Assembly (NCBI RefSeq): GCF_009208075.1
Contig: NZ_WFKJ01000030.1
Coordinates: 1-38,708, forward strand
DNA from: Poseidonibacter ostreae
GTDB lineage: Bacteria; Campylobacterota; Campylobacteria; Campylobacterales; Arcobacteraceae
DNA length: 38,708 nucleotides
Direction of reading: 5' to 3'
A program made the translations under genes and the position numbers. Position 1 is the stretch's first letter. Every line of letters begins with the position of its first letter. Of the stretch, positions 19,426-28,801 are shown in pieces. The notes under the pieces are model-generated. The model did not search any database, was not told the DNA's origin, and saw nothing but the letters and a program-made list of their open reading frames with translations.

Positions 19426-20406
19426 TTAAATTGGTAAAACTCTTAAGTTCTCATCAATTTTTTGTTGTAATACAGATTCGATTGCATATAAAGTTCCAGT
19501 AGACCCAGACGAACATCCTGAACATGAACCTAAGTATCTAATATATAAATCATAATGAGGAATATTTTCTTTAATATCAATAATTTCCATGTTTCCACCA
19601 TCCATTACTAACATAGGTCTAATATCTTCATCTAATACTGAATCAATAGCTTTAATTCTTTGAACTAAAGTCATTTTATCAAATGTTAATTCACCAGATT
19701 CACTAGCATCTGCTGCATTTTTCATTTTAGCTTCTTCCATTTCAGCTCTAGTATCAGCTAAAATATCAACTAAATAGTAGTCCATTTCTTCGTGACCACC
19801 TGGTTTAATACATGATTTACAAAAAGCACCAGCTTTAGTATAATCAGTAATCTCTTCTACTGTTTTTAAGTCATTAATTTTGATAACTTCTTGAATTGTT
19901 CCTAAGCTTACTCTTGCACATTCACAAACAATAATTTCTGTTTCAAAAGATTCCATATCAACACCTTTATACTCAGATGCTGCTTTTTTAATAACATCAT
20001 AAGCCATAACAGAACAGTGCATTTTTTGAGGTGGAACAGCTGGAGTATCTGGATTATCTCTTAATGCTTTTTCAACATCAATATTTGTAATTTTAACAGC
20101 TTCATCAACAGTTTTACCAACACATAATTCAGCCATAACATCAGAAGATGCAATTGCAGTACCACAACCAAAAGATTTGAATTTAGATTCAACAATCTCA
20201 TCAGTTTCTTCATTTACTGCCCAATATAATCTTACAGCATCACCACATGATTCAGCACCAAAGTCAGCAACAATTAATTTTGTTCCTAATTCTTTAGCTC
20301 GCTCTTCAGTAATTTCACCTTGATGTTGTGGGCTATTCATTCTATTTACAACTTGATTTGAATATTCATCCCAAATTGATCCACTAATTAAATCATTTTT
20401 TGCCAT
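19426..20406 (-). CDS. nifU: Fe-S cluster assembly scaffold NifU (three-domain)
   Basis: A 326-residue full-length NifU. The N-terminal IscU-like domain carries the scaffold cysteines C54 (SCGDA), C81 (FGCGTAIASS) and C131 (MHCSVM). The central ferredoxin-like domain holds four cysteines in CECARVS and CKSC, binding a permanent [2Fe-2S] centre. The C-terminal Nfu-like domain has MLVMDGGNMEI and the CxxC of GSCSGCSSG. It assembles clusters from sulfur delivered by NifS, encoded 30 bases upstream in the same operon. In Campylobacterota this NIF pair serves general Fe-S biogenesis rather than nitrogenase alone; no nif structural gene is in the window. Confidence 0.97.
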   Translation of the reverse strand: MAKNDLISGSIWDEYSNQVVNRMNSPQHQGEITEERAKELGTKLIVADFGAESCGDAVRLYWAVNEETDEIVESKFKSFGCGTAIASSDVMAELCVGKTVDEAVKITNIDVEKALRDNPDTPAVPPQKMHCSVMAYDVIKKAASEYKGVDMESFETEIIVCECARVSLGTIQEVIKINDLKTVEEITDYTKAGAFCKSCIKPGGHEEMDYYLVDILADTRAEMEEAKMKNAADASESGELTFDKMTLVQRIKAIDSVLDEDIRPMLVMDGGNMEIIDIKENIPHYDLYIRYLGSCSGCSSGSTGTLYAIESVLQQKIDENLRVLPI

Positions 20407-20436: not shown

Positions 20437-21639
<1,203 letters not shown>

Positions 21640-21710
21640 TTATATTCCTATTAGTTTAATTGTTTACTATTTTAATTTTTATATTTTTTAATCGAATTGT
21701 ATTTTAGTGC

Positions 21711-21735
21711 AAATAGGATAAAAATTGTCTTAATT
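21711..21735. promoter_or_regulatory. IscR-type dyad upstream of nifS
   Basis: AAATAGGAT-N7-GTCTTAATT, an imperfect 25-bp dyad sharing architecture and most bases with two sites upstream of sufB (23495-23519 and 23553-23577). On the minus strand possible -10 boxes (TAAAAT, TACAAT) follow within a few bases, so a bound protein would block nifS transcription. Divergence from the sufB sites suggests weaker binding. Confidence 0.65.
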
Positions 21736-21815
21736 AAAATAGTTTGATTCAAAATTCTTAAATTCATCACAAATTTTGGCAGTATTATAGTCAAATTCGT
21801 ATAAAAGCATAGACA

Positions 21816-21821
21816 TATAAT
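21816..21821 (+). promoter_or_regulatory. Candidate -10 box for the amino acid ABC transporter genes
   Basis: TATAAT lies 54 bases before the binding-protein ATG, which has a good ribosome-binding site (AAAAAAGG). The rest of the 239-base divergent gap (21637-21875) is AT-rich and holds the nifS dyad but no other feature I can support. Confidence 0.45.
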
Positions 21822-21875
21822 AAAGTGATGTTAAGTTTACTATGGAATAATATAAAAAAATAAAAAAGGTTTATA

Positions 21876-22670
21876 ATGAAAAAAATATTACTAGCATTAA
21901 TGTTTACATTATTATCTCTTACATTAGTTGCATCTGAAACTAAGAATGAGAAAAAAGTACTAACAGTTGGTATGGAATTAGCATATCCTCCATTTGAAAT
22001 GTCTGATAAGAACGGTACTCCACAAGGTGTATCTGTGGATTTTGCAAAAGCACTTGGAAAATACTTAGGAAGAGAAGTAGTTATTGAAAATACTGCATGG
22101 AGTGGATTAATTCCATCTTTAAAAACAGGAAGAATTGATTTAATTATTTCATCTATGACTATAACTAAAGAGAGACAAAGATCTATTAATTTTTCAATTC
22201 CTTATGCACAATCTTCACTTGCAATCTTAGCAAATAAAAACTCAGGTATTCAAAACATTGATGACTTAGATAAAGCTGGAAAAAAAGTTGCAGTTAAAAA
22301 AGGTTCTACTGGACATGTTTATGTAAGTAAAAACTTTAAAAATGCAGAAGTTTTAGTATTTGATAAAGAGAATGCTTGTGTTCTTGAAGTAGTTCAAGGA
22401 AAAGTAGATGGTTTTTTATATGACCAATTAACTATTTATAAAAACCATGTTCAACATAAAGATACAACTGTTGCACTTTTAAAATCTTTCCAAAAAGATT
22501 TTGAACACTGGGGAGTTGCTATTAATAAAAAAGATGTTGAATTAAAGAAAAAAGTTGATGAGTTTATAAAAAAAGCTAAAGAAGATGGAACATTTGCGAA
22601 GTTTGCAAAAACACATTTAACTGAAGCTAAAGCTACATTTGATGAATTAAATATACCTTTTTTCTTTTAG
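21876..22670 (+). CDS. Amino acid ABC transporter periplasmic binding protein (SBP_bac_3)
   Basis: A 264-residue secreted binding protein. Residues 1-20 form a Sec signal peptide (MKKILLALMFTLLSL..., cleavage likely after VAS). The mature part has the family opening LTVGMELAYPPFEM, GVSVDFAKALG, the ligand-site strand TAWSGLIPSLKTGRIDLIIS, and SMTITKERQRSINFS. This is the polar amino acid type; the exact substrate cannot be read. Position between nifS and the suf operon makes cyst(e)ine, the sulfur source for Fe-S assembly, an attractive guess only. A permease gene follows in the same frame, directly after the TAG stop. No ATPase gene for the transporter is in the window. Confidence 0.93.
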   Translation: MKKILLALMFTLLSLTLVASETKNEKKVLTVGMELAYPPFEMSDKNGTPQGVSVDFAKALGKYLGREVVIENTAWSGLIPSLKTGRIDLIISSMTITKERQRSINFSIPYAQSSLAILANKNSGIQNIDDLDKAGKKVAVKKGSTGHVYVSKNFKNAEVLVFDKENACVLEVVQGKVDGFLYDQLTIYKNHVQHKDTTVALLKSFQKDFEHWGVAINKKDVELKKKVDEFIKKAKEDGTFAKFAKTHLTEAKATFDELNIPFFF

Positions 22671-22679
22671 GAAATAACT

Positions 22680-23471
22680 ATCTTTAAAATTAAAAACTTA
22701 TTTATAAATGAATTAACATATAAAAACAATAACTCCCTATCTTGGGGAGTTTATTTATTTAACTTTTTTTTCTTAAGCATACTAATAACTACTCCTGTTT
22801 ATTTTATGTTTGCAAATATCTCTTATGACTTTAATTGGGCACATGTCTATGAATATAAACAAAAGTTTATCAATGGCTTTTTCATGACAATTACTATTTC
22901 TTTTTTTGCACTTATCTTAAGTTTTATAATTGGTTTATTTTTTACATATGCACAAAACTCTAAACTTATAATTTTAAGATTTTTTGCAAGATTTTATATT
23001 GAAATTATAAGAGGAACTCCTTTACTTGTTCAAATTTTAATATTTTTCTATGTTTTTGCAAATAACTTAGGTTTTGAAAATAGATATATAGTTGGAACTT
23101 TCATACTTGCGATTTTTTCAGGTGCTTATGTTTCTGAAATTATAAGAGCAGCACTTCAATCAATTGATAAAGACCAATATGAAACAAGTATAAGCCTAGG
23201 AATGTCAAACTATCAAACATATAGATATATAATTTTTCCACAAGCATTTAAAAGAATGCTTCCATCATTAACTGGACAGTTTGCTTCGATTATTAAAGAT
23301 TCATCATTATTATCAATTATTGCAATTTCAGAATTTACTATGAATGCACAAGAAGTTGATGCAATTACATACTCTACACTAGAAAGTTATATACCTCTTG
23401 CTATTGGATATTTAGCTCTAACATACCCTATTTCTTACTATACTAATCGATTAGAAAAAGATATAAAATAG
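22680..23471 (+). CDS. Amino acid ABC transporter permease, apparent non-AUG start
   Basis: The HisM/GlnP-type core is unmistakable: FINGFFMTITISFFALILSF, EIIRGTPLLVQILIFFYVFA, FSGAYVSEIIRAALQSI, and the ABC-coupling EAA loop EVDAI preceded by GMSNYQTYRYIIFPQAF. The first ATG is at 22806 and has no Shine-Dalgarno sequence. However, the frame is open all the way back to the TAG of the binding protein (22668-22670), encoding an extra hydrophobic helix (SWGVYLFNFFFLSILITTP). AGGA at 22669-22672 lies seven bases before an ATC at 22680, where an ATG would give MFKIKNLF. I therefore mark 22680 as the likely original start, with ATC possibly used as a rare start or a mutated ATG. A start at 22806 gives 221 residues. 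Confidence 0.8.
   Translation: MFKIKNLFINELTYKNNNSLSWGVYLFNFFFLSILITTPVYFMFANISYDFNWAHVYEYKQKFINGFFMTITISFFALILSFIIGLFFTYAQNSKLIILRFFARFYIEIIRGTPLLVQILIFFYVFANNLGFENRYIVGTFILAIFSGAYVSEIIRAALQSIDKDQYETSISLGMSNYQTYRYIIFPQAFKRMLPSLTGQFASIIKDSSLLSIIAISEFTMNAQEVDAITYSTLESYIPLAIGYLALTYPISYYTNRLEKDIK
22731..22770 (+). terminator. Attenuator-like hairpin after the binding-protein gene
   Basis: AACTCCC (22731-22737) and GGGAGTT (22745-22751) form a GC-rich seven-base stem, followed by a T-rich stretch ending in eight T. It lies in the stretch between the binding-protein stop and the first permease ATG. It would lower permease relative to binding-protein expression, but it also lies inside the extended permease frame. 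Confidence 0.5.
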
Positions 23472-23492
23472 TCTTTTTTATACATCATTTTT

Positions 23493-23521
23493 TTAAATAG
23501 GACTTTATTTGTCCTATTTAA
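23493..23521. promoter_or_regulatory. Upstream IscR-type dyad of the suf operon, possibly also permease terminator
   Basis: A perfect inverted repeat with 11-base arms, TTAAATAGGAC-N7-GTCCTATTTAA. The core AAATAGGAC-N7-GTCCTATTT recurs 58 bases downstream (23553-23577) with nearly the same sequence, arguing for a protein-binding site. A T-rich stretch follows, so it may also terminate the permease transcript. Confidence 0.7.
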
Positions 23522-23541
23522 GTATTTTTTAATTTATTAAG

Positions 23542-23577
23542 TGATATATTTCAAATAGGACAATTATTGTCTTATTT
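23542..23577 (+). promoter_or_regulatory. suf promoter: extended -10 box overlapped by IscR-type dyad
   Basis: An extended -10 element TG-A-TATATT (23542-23550) is followed at once by AAATAGGAC-N7-GTCTTATTT (23553-23577), which would cover the start site expected near 23557. The GAC/GTC core positions and 25-bp length agree with the E. coli IscR type 1 consensus. Repression by a cluster-loaded IscR-like protein is inferred. Confidence 0.7.
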
Positions 23578-23605
23578 AAAAATTTGAATAATTATGGAGT
23601 CAATT

Positions 23606-25051
23606 ATGAGTGATAACAAACACATTCATGACGTTATTAATAGTGAATATAAATTAGGGTTTGAAACTTTAGTACAAAGTGATACTTTTCCTAAAGGATT
23701 AAATGAAAATGTTATAAAAGCAATATCTGCCAAAAAAGAAGAACCTTCTTGGCTTTTAGATTTTAGGCTTAAAGCTTATGCTAAATGGCAAAAAATGGAA
23801 GAACCTTCTTGGGCAAATTTAAAATATCCAAAAATTGATTATCAAGATATTGCATATTTTTCAGCTCCTAAAAAAGCTTTGGATTCTTTAGATGAAGTAG
23901 ATCCAGAAATATTAAAAACATATGAAAAGCTAGGAATTCCCCTAGAAGAACAAAAACAATTAGCAGGTGTTAAAACTGTAGCAGTTGATGCTGTATTTGA
24001 TTCCGTTTCCGTTAAAACGACTTATCAAGAAGAGTTAGAAGAGTTAGGAATTATATTCTGTTCTGTTTCTGAAGCTGCAAACAGATTCCCAGATTTACTA
24101 AAAAAATATTTAGCATCTGTTGTCCCTGTTACTGATAACTATTTTGCCTGTTTAAACTCTGCTGTATTTACAGATGGTTCATTTGTTTATGTTCCACCAA
24201 ATACAGTATGTCCAATGGAGTTGTCAACGTACTTTAGAATAAATGCACTTGATACGGGACAATTTGAGAGAACTATTATTATTTGTGATGAAAACTCTTA
24301 TGTATCTTATAATGAAGGATGTTCAGCTCCTACAAGAGATGAAAGACAACTTCACGCAGCTGTTGTTGAATTAGTAGCTCTTGATAATGCACAAATAAAA
24401 TACTCAACTATTCAAAACTGGTATCCAGGTGATAAAGATGGTAAGGGTGGAATTTTAAACTTTGTAACAAAAAGAGGAGCCTGTAACGGGAAGAATTCAA
24501 AGATTTCTTGGACACAAGTTGAAACGGGTTCTTCGTTAACATGGAAATATCCATCATGTATTTTAAAAGGTGATAATAGCGTTGGAGAGTTTTATTCAGT
24601 TGCAATATCATCAAAATCGCAACAAGCAGATACGGGTACTAAAATGGTTCACTTAGGTAAAAATACTAAATCAACAATTATTTCAAAAGGTATCTCTGCA
24701 ATGAGTGGAGTTAATGCTTATAGAGGATTAGTACGAGTTGGAAAAAGTGCAACAGGAGCACGTAATATTTCAGAGTGTGATTCATTACTTATTGGAAATA
24801 AAGCCAATGCGCATACTTATCCATATCATGAAGTAAGAAATATGGATGCAATTATTGAACATGAAGCAACAACTTCAAAAATTTCTGATGAACAACTTTT
24901 TTACATATCTCAAAGAGGTATTAGTGAAGAAAATGCTATTTCAATGATTGTAAACGGTTTTTGTAAAGAAGTGTTAAAAGAGTTACCAATGGAATTTGCT
25001 GCTGAAGCAAAAGAATTATTAAATATATCATTAGAAGGGAGCGTTGGTTAA
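23606..25051 (+). CDS. sufB: Fe-S cluster assembly scaffold subunit SufB
   Basis: SufB is the core scaffold of the SufBC2D complex, on which new clusters form. The 481-residue protein shows the family's C-terminal beta-helix signature: [76 protein letters not shown] and the late [16 protein letters not shown] chose the ATG at 23606 because GGAG (23596-23599) is six bases upstream; an ATG at 23594 four codons earlier overlaps that site. It is the first gene of sufBCDSE-sufT, behind two IscR-type dyads. A 19-bp palindrome spans its stop codon. Confidence 0.97.
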
Positions 25052-25072: not shown

Positions 25073-25828
25073 ATGTTAGAAATTAAAGATTTAAAAGTAA
25101 ATATAAATGATAAAGAAATTTTAAAAGGTTTAAACTTAAATATTAAAGAGGGTGAAGTTCATGCTTTAATGGGAATTAATGGAGCTGGAAAATCAACTTT
25201 AGTAAAGACTTTAAGTGCTCACTATGACTGTGTAGTAAAAGAGGGTTCCATTACATATAAAAAGAAAGATTTATTAGAACTTGATGTTGCAGAGCGTGCA
25301 AATGAAGGTATTTTTATGAGTTTTCAAAATCCTATTGAAGTTCCAGGTGTTAATAATAGCTATTTTTTAAAAACTGCAATAAATGAAAAAAGAGCATATG
25401 CAGGAGAGAGTGAAATTGATACTATGGATTTTTTAAAGCTTATAAAAGAGCAAACATCTAAATACAACCTTGATAAAAAACTTCTACAAAGAGATTTAAA
25501 TGAAGGCTTTTCTGGTGGAGAGAAAAAAAGAAATGAACTAATTCAATTACTACTTTTAGACCCAGATTTGATTATGTTAGATGAGATAGATTCAGGTCTT
25601 GATGTAGATGCTATTAAAACAGTTGCAAATGTTGTAAATGCAATGTTAGATGGAAAAAAGTCTGTGCTTATGATTACTCATTATGATAGATTATTAGAGC
25701 TTATTAAACCTGATTTTGTTCATATTTTAAATGACGGACAGATTGTAAAAACAGGAGATTACTCTCTTGCTTTAGAGCTAGATGAAAAAGGCTATGAGGG
25801 AATAGGAATTAAAGATGAGACTAAATGA
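25073..25828 (+). CDS. sufC: Fe-S assembly ATPase SufC
   Basis: SufC is the ABC-type ATPase of the SufBC2D scaffold; ATP binding reshapes SufB/SufD to permit cluster assembly. The 251-residue protein has Walker A GINGAGKS (34-41), a Q-loop at FMSFQNPIEVPGV, the ABC signature FSGGEKKRNE (146-155), Walker B LIMLDE (166-171), a D-loop DSGLD and the switch histidine in MITHYDRLL. SGGEKKRNE is the form typical of SufC rather than of transporters. It lies 21 bases after sufB, with a hairpin between, and its last 14 bases overlap sufD. Confidence 0.97.
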   Translation: MLEIKDLKVNINDKEILKGLNLNIKEGEVHALMGINGAGKSTLVKTLSAHYDCVVKEGSITYKKKDLLELDVAERANEGIFMSFQNPIEVPGVNNSYFLKTAINEKRAYAGESEIDTMDFLKLIKEQTSKYNLDKKLLQRDLNEGFSGGEKKRNELIQLLLLDPDLIMLDEIDSGLDVDAIKTVANVVNAMLDGKKSVLMITHYDRLLELIKPDFVHILNDGQIVKTGDYSLALELDEKGYEGIGIKDETK

Positions 25829-26849
25829 TATTAAAGAACTAACTCTTCCTAAAAGAAGAGATGAAGAGTTTATAAAAGTAAATTTTGGTGAACTTTTTTC
25901 ATATGATTTTAAAAATACTCAAAACTATAACCTTGATATTATGGGATTAGAAGTAAAAAAAGATACAAAAGAGTATGCAAATTCATTATTTGAAATTACA
26001 AAAAGTTTAGATAAAAACCAAGTAATCTTAACAATAAACTCAAATATTCCAGAGCCAATTTGTTTAATTCATAAAATTAAAGAAAACGAGACATTTTTTA
26101 CAAATTCATTAAAAATTGAAGTAAAAGAGAATGTAAAAGCATCTGTTATTGAAGTTTTTACAAACACTTCAACAAATAGTGCTTATTGTGTAAACAGATC
26201 TTTTGAAGTAAATGAAAATGCAAATTTAGAGTATGCAAAAATTCAAGACATAAATGACTTAAATTATTTGCTTTTTAATTTAGATGTTAATCAAAAAGAT
26301 AATTCAAAATGCAAAATCACAAATTTTGAGTATGGAACTGGTGTAATTGTAAATAATATTGTAAGTATATTAGATAATAAAAATTGTGATTATGAACTAA
26401 ATGGTTTAGTTAAATCTATTGATTCATCAAGTACAGCAAATGTAATAAAAACTGTACATAATAAAGAGAATTCAATAAGTAATATAAACTATAAACATTC
26501 ATTAAAAGATAATTCACGTGCAGTTTTCAAAGCCTTATCAAGAGTAAATAAAGATGCACTTTTTTCAAAAGCATTTCAAAACTCAAATACTATTTTACTT
26601 TCAAATGATGCGGCAATTTATGCACAACCTCATTTAGAAATTTTAATAGATGAACTTGAAGCAAGTCATGGTGCAACAACAGGAACTTTAGATAAAGATC
26701 AATTATTATATTTACAATCACGGGGAATTAATAAAAACTTAGCTTATGAGATACTTTTAAAAGCTTTTGAAAGTAAAATATATGATAATATTGAAGATAA
26801 ATTAATAAAAGAATTTATAGATTCATATGAAAGGAAAAAATATGTTTAA
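25815..26849 (+). CDS. sufD: Fe-S assembly scaffold subunit SufD
   Basis: SufD pairs with SufB in the scaffold complex. The 344-residue protein is divergent in its N-terminal half but has the shared SufB/SufD C-terminal pattern: SRVNKDALFSKAFQNSNTIL, then SNDAAIYAQPHLEI, and DELEASHGATTGTLDKDQLLY followed by LQSRGI. The histidine in EASHGAT corresponds to the SufD residue implicated in cluster assembly. It starts within the last codons of sufC (14-base overlap) and ends eight bases inside sufS, so the three are tightly coupled. Size is lower than in E. coli (about 420) because of a shorter N-terminal helical region. Confidence 0.95.
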   Translation: MRLNDIKELTLPKRRDEEFIKVNFGELFSYDFKNTQNYNLDIMGLEVKKDTKEYANSLFEITKSLDKNQVILTINSNIPEPICLIHKIKENETFFTNSLKIEVKENVKASVIEVFTNTSTNSAYCVNRSFEVNENANLEYAKIQDINDLNYLLFNLDVNQKDNSKCKITNFEYGTGVIVNNIVSILDNKNCDYELNGLVKSIDSSSTANVIKTVHNKENSISNINYKHSLKDNSRAVFKALSRVNKDALFSKAFQNSNTILLSNDAAIYAQPHLEILIDELEASHGATTGTLDKDQLLYLQSRGINKNLAYEILLKAFESKIYDNIEDKLIKEFIDSYERKKYV

Positions 26850-28026
26850 AAAAGATTTCACATATTTTGAAAATTCAGACATTGTATATTTAGACAATGC
26901 AGCAACTACTCAAAAACCAAAATCAGTAGTTGCCTCGCAAGTTGAATATTATGAAAAATATTGTGCAAATACACATAGAAGTAATTTTGGTGATGCAAAT
27001 AAAGCAACACAAAATTACGAGAATGCAAGAAAAGTATTAAAAGAGTTTATAAATGCAAAAAATAAAGAAGAGATAATATTTACAAAAGGTGTAACAGAGT
27101 CTATTAATTTTATTGCAAGCTCTTATGCAAAAGATTTTAAAACAATAATTATATCTTCATTAGAACACCATTCTAATATTGTTCCTTGGCATCTTCAAGG
27201 AAGAAGTTTAGGAAAAGGACTTGAGGTTGTAAAGTATAATAAAAACCTAGATTTTGATATTGAACATTTTGAAGAACTATTAAAAGAAAATCCAAAATCT
27301 TTTGTAAGTATTACCCATATATCAAATGCTTTTGGAAAAATACATAATATTAAAGAAATAATATCACTTGCTCATAAATATGAAGCTGTTGTAATGATTG
27401 ATGGAGCACAGAGTTTAGCTCATACAAGAGTTGATATGCAAGATTTAGATGTAGACTTTTTCGCAATTTCTGGACATAAAACATTTGCACCAACAGGAGT
27501 TGGAGCTATTTATATAAAAGAAAAATATTTAAAAAGTGTAAAAGCTTATCAAACAGGAGGAGCAACTATAGATCAAGTTGATTTTAATAGTTCAACACTT
27601 TTAGATGCACCGTATAAGTTTGAAGCAGGGACACAAAATATCGCTGGAATAATAGGTTTTGGTGAGGCATTAGAGTATTTAAATCATGTTGGATATGAAA
27701 ATATAGAATTAATAGAAAAAGATGTTTTTAATTACTTAAATCAAGAGTTAGAAAAACTTCCAAATATCATATTTTATAATGATATTAGTGATTCAATTGG
27801 AAGTAGAAGTTTTAACTTTGAGGGTTTAATTCATGATGATATTGGTATTTTAGTTGATAAAATGAAAATAGCTTTAAGAGTAGGTCATCATTGTGCACAA
27901 CCAATTATGAAAGATTTAAATATTAAAGGTACTATACGAGTATCAATAAGCTTTTATAATGATTATAGCGATGTAGATAAACTAATTGTTGCACTAAAAA
28001 GAGCTTTAAAAATGTTAGAGAATTAA
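26842..28026 (+). CDS. sufS: Cysteine desulfurase SufS
   Basis: A class II cysteine desulfurase that supplies sulfur to the Suf scaffold through SufE. Motifs are VYLDNAATTQKP at the N-terminus, the histidine of SLEHHSNIVPW, the PLP lysine in AISGHKTFAPTGVG, and the catalytic cysteine in RVGHHCAQP, in the short-loop form typical of SufS. I chose the ATG at 26842 (394 residues) because AAGGA is about seven bases upstream; an in-frame ATG at 26827 lies before that site. It is distinct from NifS in the same window, so this organism has two desulfurases for two assembly systems. Confidence 0.96.
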   Translation: MFKKDFTYFENSDIVYLDNAATTQKPKSVVASQVEYYEKYCANTHRSNFGDANKATQNYENARKVLKEFINAKNKEEIIFTKGVTESINFIASSYAKDFKTIIISSLEHHSNIVPWHLQGRSLGKGLEVVKYNKNLDFDIEHFEELLKENPKSFVSITHISNAFGKIHNIKEIISLAHKYEAVVMIDGAQSLAHTRVDMQDLDVDFFAISGHKTFAPTGVGAIYIKEKYLKSVKAYQTGGATIDQVDFNSSTLLDAPYKFEAGTQNIAGIIGFGEALEYLNHVGYENIELIEKDVFNYLNQELEKLPNIIFYNDISDSIGSRSFNFEGLIHDDIGILVDKMKIALRVGHHCAQPIMKDLNIKGTIRVSISFYNDYSDVDKLIVALKRALKMLEN

Positions 28027-28039
28027 AATAGGATTACAA

Positions 28040-28447
28040 ATGAGTATTGAAAAAAGAGTTGAAGATATAAAAGAAGATTTAGAATTTTTTGAAGATGAAT
28101 TGCAAAAATATGAATATATTATTGATTTAGGAAAAAAGCTAGAATCTTTAGATGAAAAGCATCAAATTCCAGCAAATTTAGTACATGGTTGTACTTCACA
28201 AGTTTGGTTAATATGTGAGCAAATTGATAATAGACTTATTTTTAAAGGGACTTCAGATGCGATAATTGTAAAAGGTTTAGTTTATATGATTCTGCAAATA
28301 TTTTCTGATTCAACAATTGAAGAGTTAAAAGATGTTGATATGGACATTGTTCATGAACTAAATTTAAGTGAAATAATTACACCAAATAGACAAAGTGGAG
28401 TTATTGGAATGATTAAAAAAATCAAAGAGTATGCACTAAAAGCGTAA
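28040..28447 (+). CDS. sufE: Sulfur acceptor protein SufE
   Basis: SufE accepts persulfide sulfur from SufS and passes it to SufB. The 135-residue protein matches the family in length, and the acceptor cysteine is C51 in VHGCTSQVW. Downstream segments FKGTSDAIIVKGLVYMIL and LSEIITPNRQSGVIGM also fit. It lies 13 bases after sufS with an AGGA site. Its presence with SufS completes a canonical sulfur relay independent of NifS. Confidence 0.96.
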   Translation: MSIEKRVEDIKEDLEFFEDELQKYEYIIDLGKKLESLDEKHQIPANLVHGCTSQVWLICEQIDNRLIFKGTSDAIIVKGLVYMILQIFSDSTIEELKDVDMDIVHELNLSEIITPNRQSGVIGMIKKIKEYALKA

Positions 28448-28456
28448 AGGATTATA

Positions 28457-28801
28457 ATGTCAGATAATTACAATTTTGATGAAATAAGAGAAAGAATAAT
28501 AGAAAATTTAAAAAACGTATTTGATCCAGAGATTCCTGTAAATGTTTATGATTTAGGATTAATATACGAAATAAATTTTGAGCAAAGAGATGCAGGTTTA
28601 TATTGTGTAATTTATATGACTCTAACAAGTCCAGCTTGTCCAGTTGCAGGGACAATAATGGAACAAGTTAGACTTGTAACACAAGCTGTAGAAGAAGTGA
28701 ATGAAGCAAAAGTTCATATTACATTTAAACCAAGATGGACAAATGATATGGTTAGTGAAGAGGGAAAAGAAATTATGGCAGCATCTGGAGCAGTTATATA
28801 A
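28457..28801 (+). CDS. sufT: SufT-like MIP18/DUF59 Fe-S maturation protein
   Basis: A 114-residue MIP18-family (DUF59) protein. It has the signature DPEIPVNVYDLGLIY (23-37) and the TSPACPVAG motif with conserved C61. In bacterial suf operons this member is called SufT or YitW/PaaD-like and helps mature Fe-S proteins. It is nine bases after sufE and is the last gene of the operon on this strand with a clear Fe-S role. The family is certain; the name follows from context. Confidence 0.92.
   Translation: MSDNYNFDEIRERIIENLKNVFDPEIPVNVYDLGLIYEINFEQRDAGLYCVIYMTLTSPACPVAGTIMEQVRLVTQAVEEVNEAKVHITFKPRWTNDMVSEEGKEIMAASGAVI

Follow-up and report, generated by a model that had tools for sequence, protein, structure and literature searches.

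Two Fe-S assembly systems of Poseidonibacter ostreae, NIF and SUF, together with part of the oxidant defence, would be coordinated by one repressor of the Rrf2 superfamily, similar to RisR and IscR and acting in its cluster-loaded (holo) form, the gene of which adjoins rpsO; to this reading we give a probability of roughly 0.78. The 38,708-nucleotide stretch of DNA analysed here (the window) carries both gene clusters, and the original prediction, made from its letters, had proposed that nif and suf would share a single cluster-sensing repressor, a proposal that is supported by a three-cysteine Rrf2 gene in the genome and by the conservation of the motif.

Three dyads at nifSU and suf

The pattern AAATAGGAC-N7-GTCCTATTT has three matches in the window, at 23495-23519 (no mismatches), 23553-23577 (one) and 21711-21735 (three), when 0.06 would be expected in dinucleotide shuffles and none of 100 shuffles reaches three, so that the three copies first reported are confirmed in their places. 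Within the 25-bp frame of the site, GAC occupies positions 7-9 and GTC positions 17-19, also as reported, and the same frame fits the E. coli iscR promoter (ATACCCGACTAAATCAGTCAAGTAA), which bears out the likeness to the type-1 geometry of E. coli IscR. A scan of the whole genome (2.96 Mb, 156 contigs) at up to three mismatches gives 12 places, versus none for a backwards control pattern; the sites on contigs C120 and C80 (two and three mismatches) lie inside genes and are probably there by chance. When the pattern is relaxed, the count at two mismatches stays at background level (35 versus 41), and the weak members of the genome-wide set are therefore uncertain.

Both suf sites are of the symmetric form, which we call class A, and are read on the + strand. 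The distal one (23495-23519), evident in the sequence and in the pattern scan, is the perfect dyad AAATAGGACTTTATTTGTCCTATTT, while the proximal one (23553-23577), backed by the pattern scan, by conservation and by promoter alignment, lies over the predicted transcription start. The predicted extended -10 box of the sufB promoter, TG-A-TATATT (TGATATATT; 23542-23550, + strand, read from the sequence), has as its counterpart TGTTATAT(T) at the same position in several sufB promoters of relatives, and since it ends 2 bp before the proximal operator, this operator would cover the expected start, in agreement with the original prediction. The 58 bp given there for the distance between the paired sites are correct when measured from start to start, and this spacing is seen again in other genera.

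The genes that follow, all on the + strand, are sufB (23594-25051; NF008773, 849 bits, cutoff 717; alternative ATG start at 23606), sufC (25073-25828; TIGR01978, 335 bits, cutoff 212.8), a divergent sufD (25815-26849; TIGR01981, E 5.6e-55, below cutoff), sufS (26827-28026; TIGR01979, E 6.8e-131, somewhat below cutoff), sufE (28040-28447; PF02657, 131 bits) and a gene for a SufT-like, SUF-associated protein (28457-28801; PF01883; TIGR02945, E 4.5e-31).

With regard to gene order, the genes for the binding protein and the permease of an amino-acid-type ABC transporter occupy 21876-23471 of the window, between nifSU and suf; in several relatives sufB and nifS adjoin directly and are divergent. 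Several genomes of one genus, g2 (G005, G014, G027), are without a close nifS match, and at four loci of that genus (L029, L030, L037, L038) a divergent NifU-like gene stands opposite sufB, in which the cysteines of the window's NifU (ESCGD, FGCGT) are replaced, as if, to judge from these residues, the scaffold role had been lost.

Two operator arrangements

On the opposite strand, nifS (20437-21636, - strand; an epsilon-type cysteine desulfurase, TIGR03403, 650 bits, cutoff 587.7) and nifU (19426-20406, - strand; a three-domain scaffold, PF01592, PF04324 and PF01106) are preceded by the third site (21711-21735), which on the - strand reads AATTAAGACAATTTTTATCCTATTT and is recognised by the pattern scan and the family alignment. 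The predicted -10 box of nifS, TAAAAT (21701-21706, - strand), lies 4 bp downstream of it, at a conserved offset of 3-4 bp. That this copy stands upstream of nifS was rightly seen; that it is degenerate does not hold, for in the family promoter alignment the block AATTAAGACA-N5-TATCCTATTT is the most conserved one upstream of nifS, with a TARAAT box 4 bp downstream. The form, AATTAAGAC-N7-ATCCTATTT, which lies 3-4 bp ahead of the -10 box, is asymmetric (class B) and is also found before mrp/apbC and tpx; it is a conserved class, and the nifS copy is not the product of decay but, as judged from the alignments, a maintained and different arrangement.

At up to four mismatches the asymmetric form precedes mrp in 22 of 30 cases and tpx in 15 of 30, with about 0.1 expected in each. 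A -10-like hexamer starts 3-4 bp past the site in 15 of 66 cases at nifS, 17 of 23 at mrp and 20 of 24 at tpx, and the asymmetry follows the orientation of the gene by 17 to 4 (mrp) and 20 to 3 (tpx). For nifS overall the orientation is mixed (27 versus 20), because outside the window's family the site lies nearer the start codon and is more symmetric. The sites of sufB are symmetric and mostly downstream of the -10 box.

A candidate regulator beside rpsO

The genome contains two Rrf2 genes. One of them (L002:1495-1893) adjoins rpsO and encodes a protein of 132 aa with the cysteines C91-X6-C98-X7-C106, situated in the loop after the wing, as is characteristic of Fe-S-binding Rrf2 proteins; an Rrf2/IscR gene with three cysteines, anticipated by the original prediction, is thus present. 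None of the 46 readable phylum orthologs departs from the three cysteines or from Glu8 (of 47 rows, one at a contig end was left out). The protein belongs to the Rrf2 superfamily (PF02082, 97.5 bits, cutoff 30; TIGR00738, 108.5, cutoff 73.3), and it is not an IscR equivalog, as its scores are far below the cutoffs of the IscR models (TIGR02010, 74.2 bits versus 207.55; NF008110, 50 versus 275). Compared with E. coli IscR it has Glu8 for Arg8, Ala41 for Glu43 and Lys42 for Gln44, and the orthologs have W, M, S or L at the position of His107, the fourth ligand of IscR. Nor is the gene placed as iscR is, first in an isc or suf operon and autoregulated: it lies by rpsO, and a site of its own, upstream and at up to four mismatches, is present at only one of the 46 readable loci (L062), so that most genomes lack the autoregulation by which IscR and RisR are typically governed.

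The same protein could act in another mode, with the apo form binding, or with activation at the class B sites, as is the case for apo-IscR at E. coli suf, rather than as a holo-repressor only. The fixed orientation and -10 spacing of the class B sites would suit such a mode, and so would the fact that Glu43, which stops apo-IscR from binding type-1 DNA, is Ala in all the orthologs compared, given that the E43A variant of IscR allows the apo protein to bind at type-1 sites (PMC5411485). However, the places where these sites lie, class A on the start and class B in the -35/spacer region, are those of a repressor, and repression by RisR requires its cysteines (PMC9973013), so that we consider this mode unlikely and continue to favour the holo-repressor.

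Conservation and joint absence

Within Campylobacterota, sites at up to three mismatches are found upstream of nifS in 22 of 45 regions (0.05 in shuffles) and upstream of sufB in 19 of 24 (none in shuffles), a recurrence in relatives that the original prediction had looked to for its support; in the window's own family, a match at up to two mismatches exists in 71 of 104 genomes. The three-cysteine Rrf2 protein has a homologue in 180 of 249 genomes of the phylum. It is absent or only weakly matched in one family (f2), identified as Helicobacteraceae by the named nifS genes of H. cinaedi and H. baculiformis (best matches, up to 86% identity), and in that family the site is absent from all 25 regions upstream of nifS, each of which is at six or more mismatches. 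A Campylobacteraceae-like family (f3), closest to the named Campylobacter nifS, has a site at up to five mismatches in 17 of 25 such regions; its consensus is AAAAARGATAAAAATTATCCTAATT, and its distance to nifS is mostly 34-54 bp. The coupling of regulator and site is not universal, since in a family with a diverged Rrf2 (f5) the five readable genomes are without a site at nifS, though one has a site at tpx, and a few lineages, such as some Sulfuricurvum, lack a clear nifS site while their family generally has the regulator. From these comparisons, it looks like a control circuit that most Campylobacterota kept and that disappeared in Helicobacter along with the gene of the regulator.

These distributions bear on who reads the site. 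Were it another regulator, such as Fur, PerR, CosR/CemR or a CRP/FNR protein, the correlation with Rrf2 would be incidental; Fur regulation of nifS is reported in H. pylori, and FNR-like boxes stand beside some sites, for example in the pair at L015:3052-3108. However, the Helicobacteraceae, which lack site and Rrf2 jointly, keep Fur, the 25-bp GAC-N7-GTC frame fits Rrf2 operators and the targets are Fe-S biogenesis genes, all of which makes this explanation quite improbable. The second Rrf2 protein of the genome (L001) has no cysteines, is encoded among cysteine-synthesis genes and has CymR as its best NCBIfam match; being of the same superfamily, it might tie cysteine supply to Fe-S assembly, which consumes cysteine. 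Yet most sampled f3 genomes show a single Rrf2 match, the three-cysteine one, and have the nifS site nonetheless, for which reason the CymR-like protein is a most improbable reader of it, and the rpsO-linked Rrf2 remains our candidate.

Further predicted targets and other elements

The further sites of this genome precede mrp/apbC, selO, napA, a desulfoferrodoxin-type superoxide reductase gene, tpx and a YgbA-like gene, and in other genomes independently found sites precede the same suf, superoxide reductase, napA, selO and ygbA genes, as well as genes for a cytochrome c peroxidase and a peroxiredoxin (judged by eye). The theme of these predicted targets is Fe-S supply together with oxidant and nitrosative defence. 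Two provisional assignments were discarded after family searches: the L018 gene is napA and not a formate dehydrogenase gene, and the L019 gene encodes a desulfoferrodoxin/superoxide reductase and is not soxZ.

A putative gene for a small RNA, about 105 nt in length, lies at L016:3095-3195 (G000:C89, about 19694-19794). Its conserved promoter contains the dyad TTAACCTTT...AAAGGTTAA, and it is followed by a stem-loop, the unpaired sequence UUCUCCU(C)CUA and a terminator whose loop is rich in C and U; a class A-like operator is found upstream of it in much of the window's genus. DNA matches at the search threshold occur in 60 of 104 genomes of the family, some of them to the operator alone, and Rfam gives no match. 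The pair at L015:3052-3108, two sites 32 bp apart with the perfect FNR-type box TTGATTTAAATCAA between them, stands upstream of a gene for a short secreted protein, and a similar pair is found in G001 near C1:473637. A weak site (L176:2595-2619), seen again in three other genomes (L027, L031, L040), is flanked by a gene for a HAD hydrolase and by a small NosL-like gene, next to which stands a sulfite-exporter-like gene; the small protein has no match in Pfam.

Proposed mechanism

When clusters are plentiful, a cluster-loaded Rrf2 dimer would sit on the GAC-N7-GTC cores and RNA polymerase would be blocked, at suf by the proximal site on the transcription start and a second site upstream, and at nifS, mrp and tpx by a class B site over the -35/spacer region. 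Loss of the clusters, or damage to them, would release the repressor, and Fe-S assembly would rise together with peroxide and superoxide defence. If a holo-repressor holds suf through two strong operators and nif through one asymmetric operator, nif would be released first and suf later, so that different thresholds for the two systems, arising from the two operator classes, are plausible, in line with the original prediction.

A more ambitious version of this scheme would have an Rrf2 Fe-S sensor throughout the phylum, with two operator classes (symmetric on the suf start; asymmetric and fixed to the -10 box at nif, mrp and tpx) through which cluster loss would call up, in a fixed sequence, Fe-S assembly and the defence against peroxide and superoxide, and which in Arcobacteraceae would also control the conserved small RNA with its unpaired CUCCUCCU as a RyhB-like, Fe-S-sparing arm; taken as a whole, we hold this to be rather doubtful.

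Significance

A literature search found no paper in which a regulator is named for the assembly of Fe-S clusters in Campylobacterota. Campylobacter jejuni relies on NifU-IscS and has no SUF (PMC4257069), and its iscS and nifU are up to about 15-fold higher in biofilms (PMC12056249); both papers are silent on any Rrf2 protein. What is offered here is a specific candidate regulator, the rpsO-linked Rrf2, with specific operators and clear predictions. In C. jejuni it would correspond to Cj0883c, which we take to be placed by rpsO and which by synteny and name is the probable ortholog. This gene is annotated only as Rrf2 family (PMC11202532), and its number adjoins that of flhA (Cj0882c). The phylum would be a second lineage with two Fe-S machineries, one of them NIF in this case, probably under the control of a single Rrf2 protein, and the Helicobacteraceae provide a natural loss experiment for regulator and site.

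Comparison with known systems

With E. coli IscR the candidate shares the Rrf2 fold and the three cysteines, and its presumed operator is a 25-bp type-1 site with GAC-N7-GTC in frame; in E. coli, however, suf has a type-2 site, whereas here it carries the type-1-like form. An acidic residue at position 8, the invariant Glu8 of our orthologs, is found likewise in RsrR and in the NsrR of S. coelicolor, where Asp8 is a cluster ligand contributed by the partner subunit (PMC5411485), although NsrR senses NO, controls hmp and has a 23-bp operator unlike the site described here. The Xanthomonas-type SUF regulator (TIGR02944) and RirA are also Rrf2 regulators of suf or iron genes, and the candidate scores 62 bits with the former model and 53 bits with that of RirA, both below cutoffs.

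RisR of M. xanthus, an Rrf2 protein of group IS6 that probably carries a [4Fe-4S] cluster, represses both isc and suf, with footprints of the form T(t/g)GAC-N7-GTCC(t/a) (PMC9973013). As would be the case here, one three-cysteine Rrf2 protein serves two Fe-S machineries, through a GAC-N7-GTC(C) core with AT-rich flanks and sites over promoter elements; the core is present at both suf and nif, while the bases outside it vary, and at nif ATC takes the place of GTC. There are differences, in that risR lies in the suf operon and controls ISC and SUF, whereas here the Rrf2 gene is unlinked, by rpsO, and the second system is NIF, and in that the cysteines are arranged as C-X6-C-X7-C here and as C92/C102/C108 in RisR. 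Likened by its operator and targets, the system described here would thus find in RisR a precedent equally good as, or better than, IscR.
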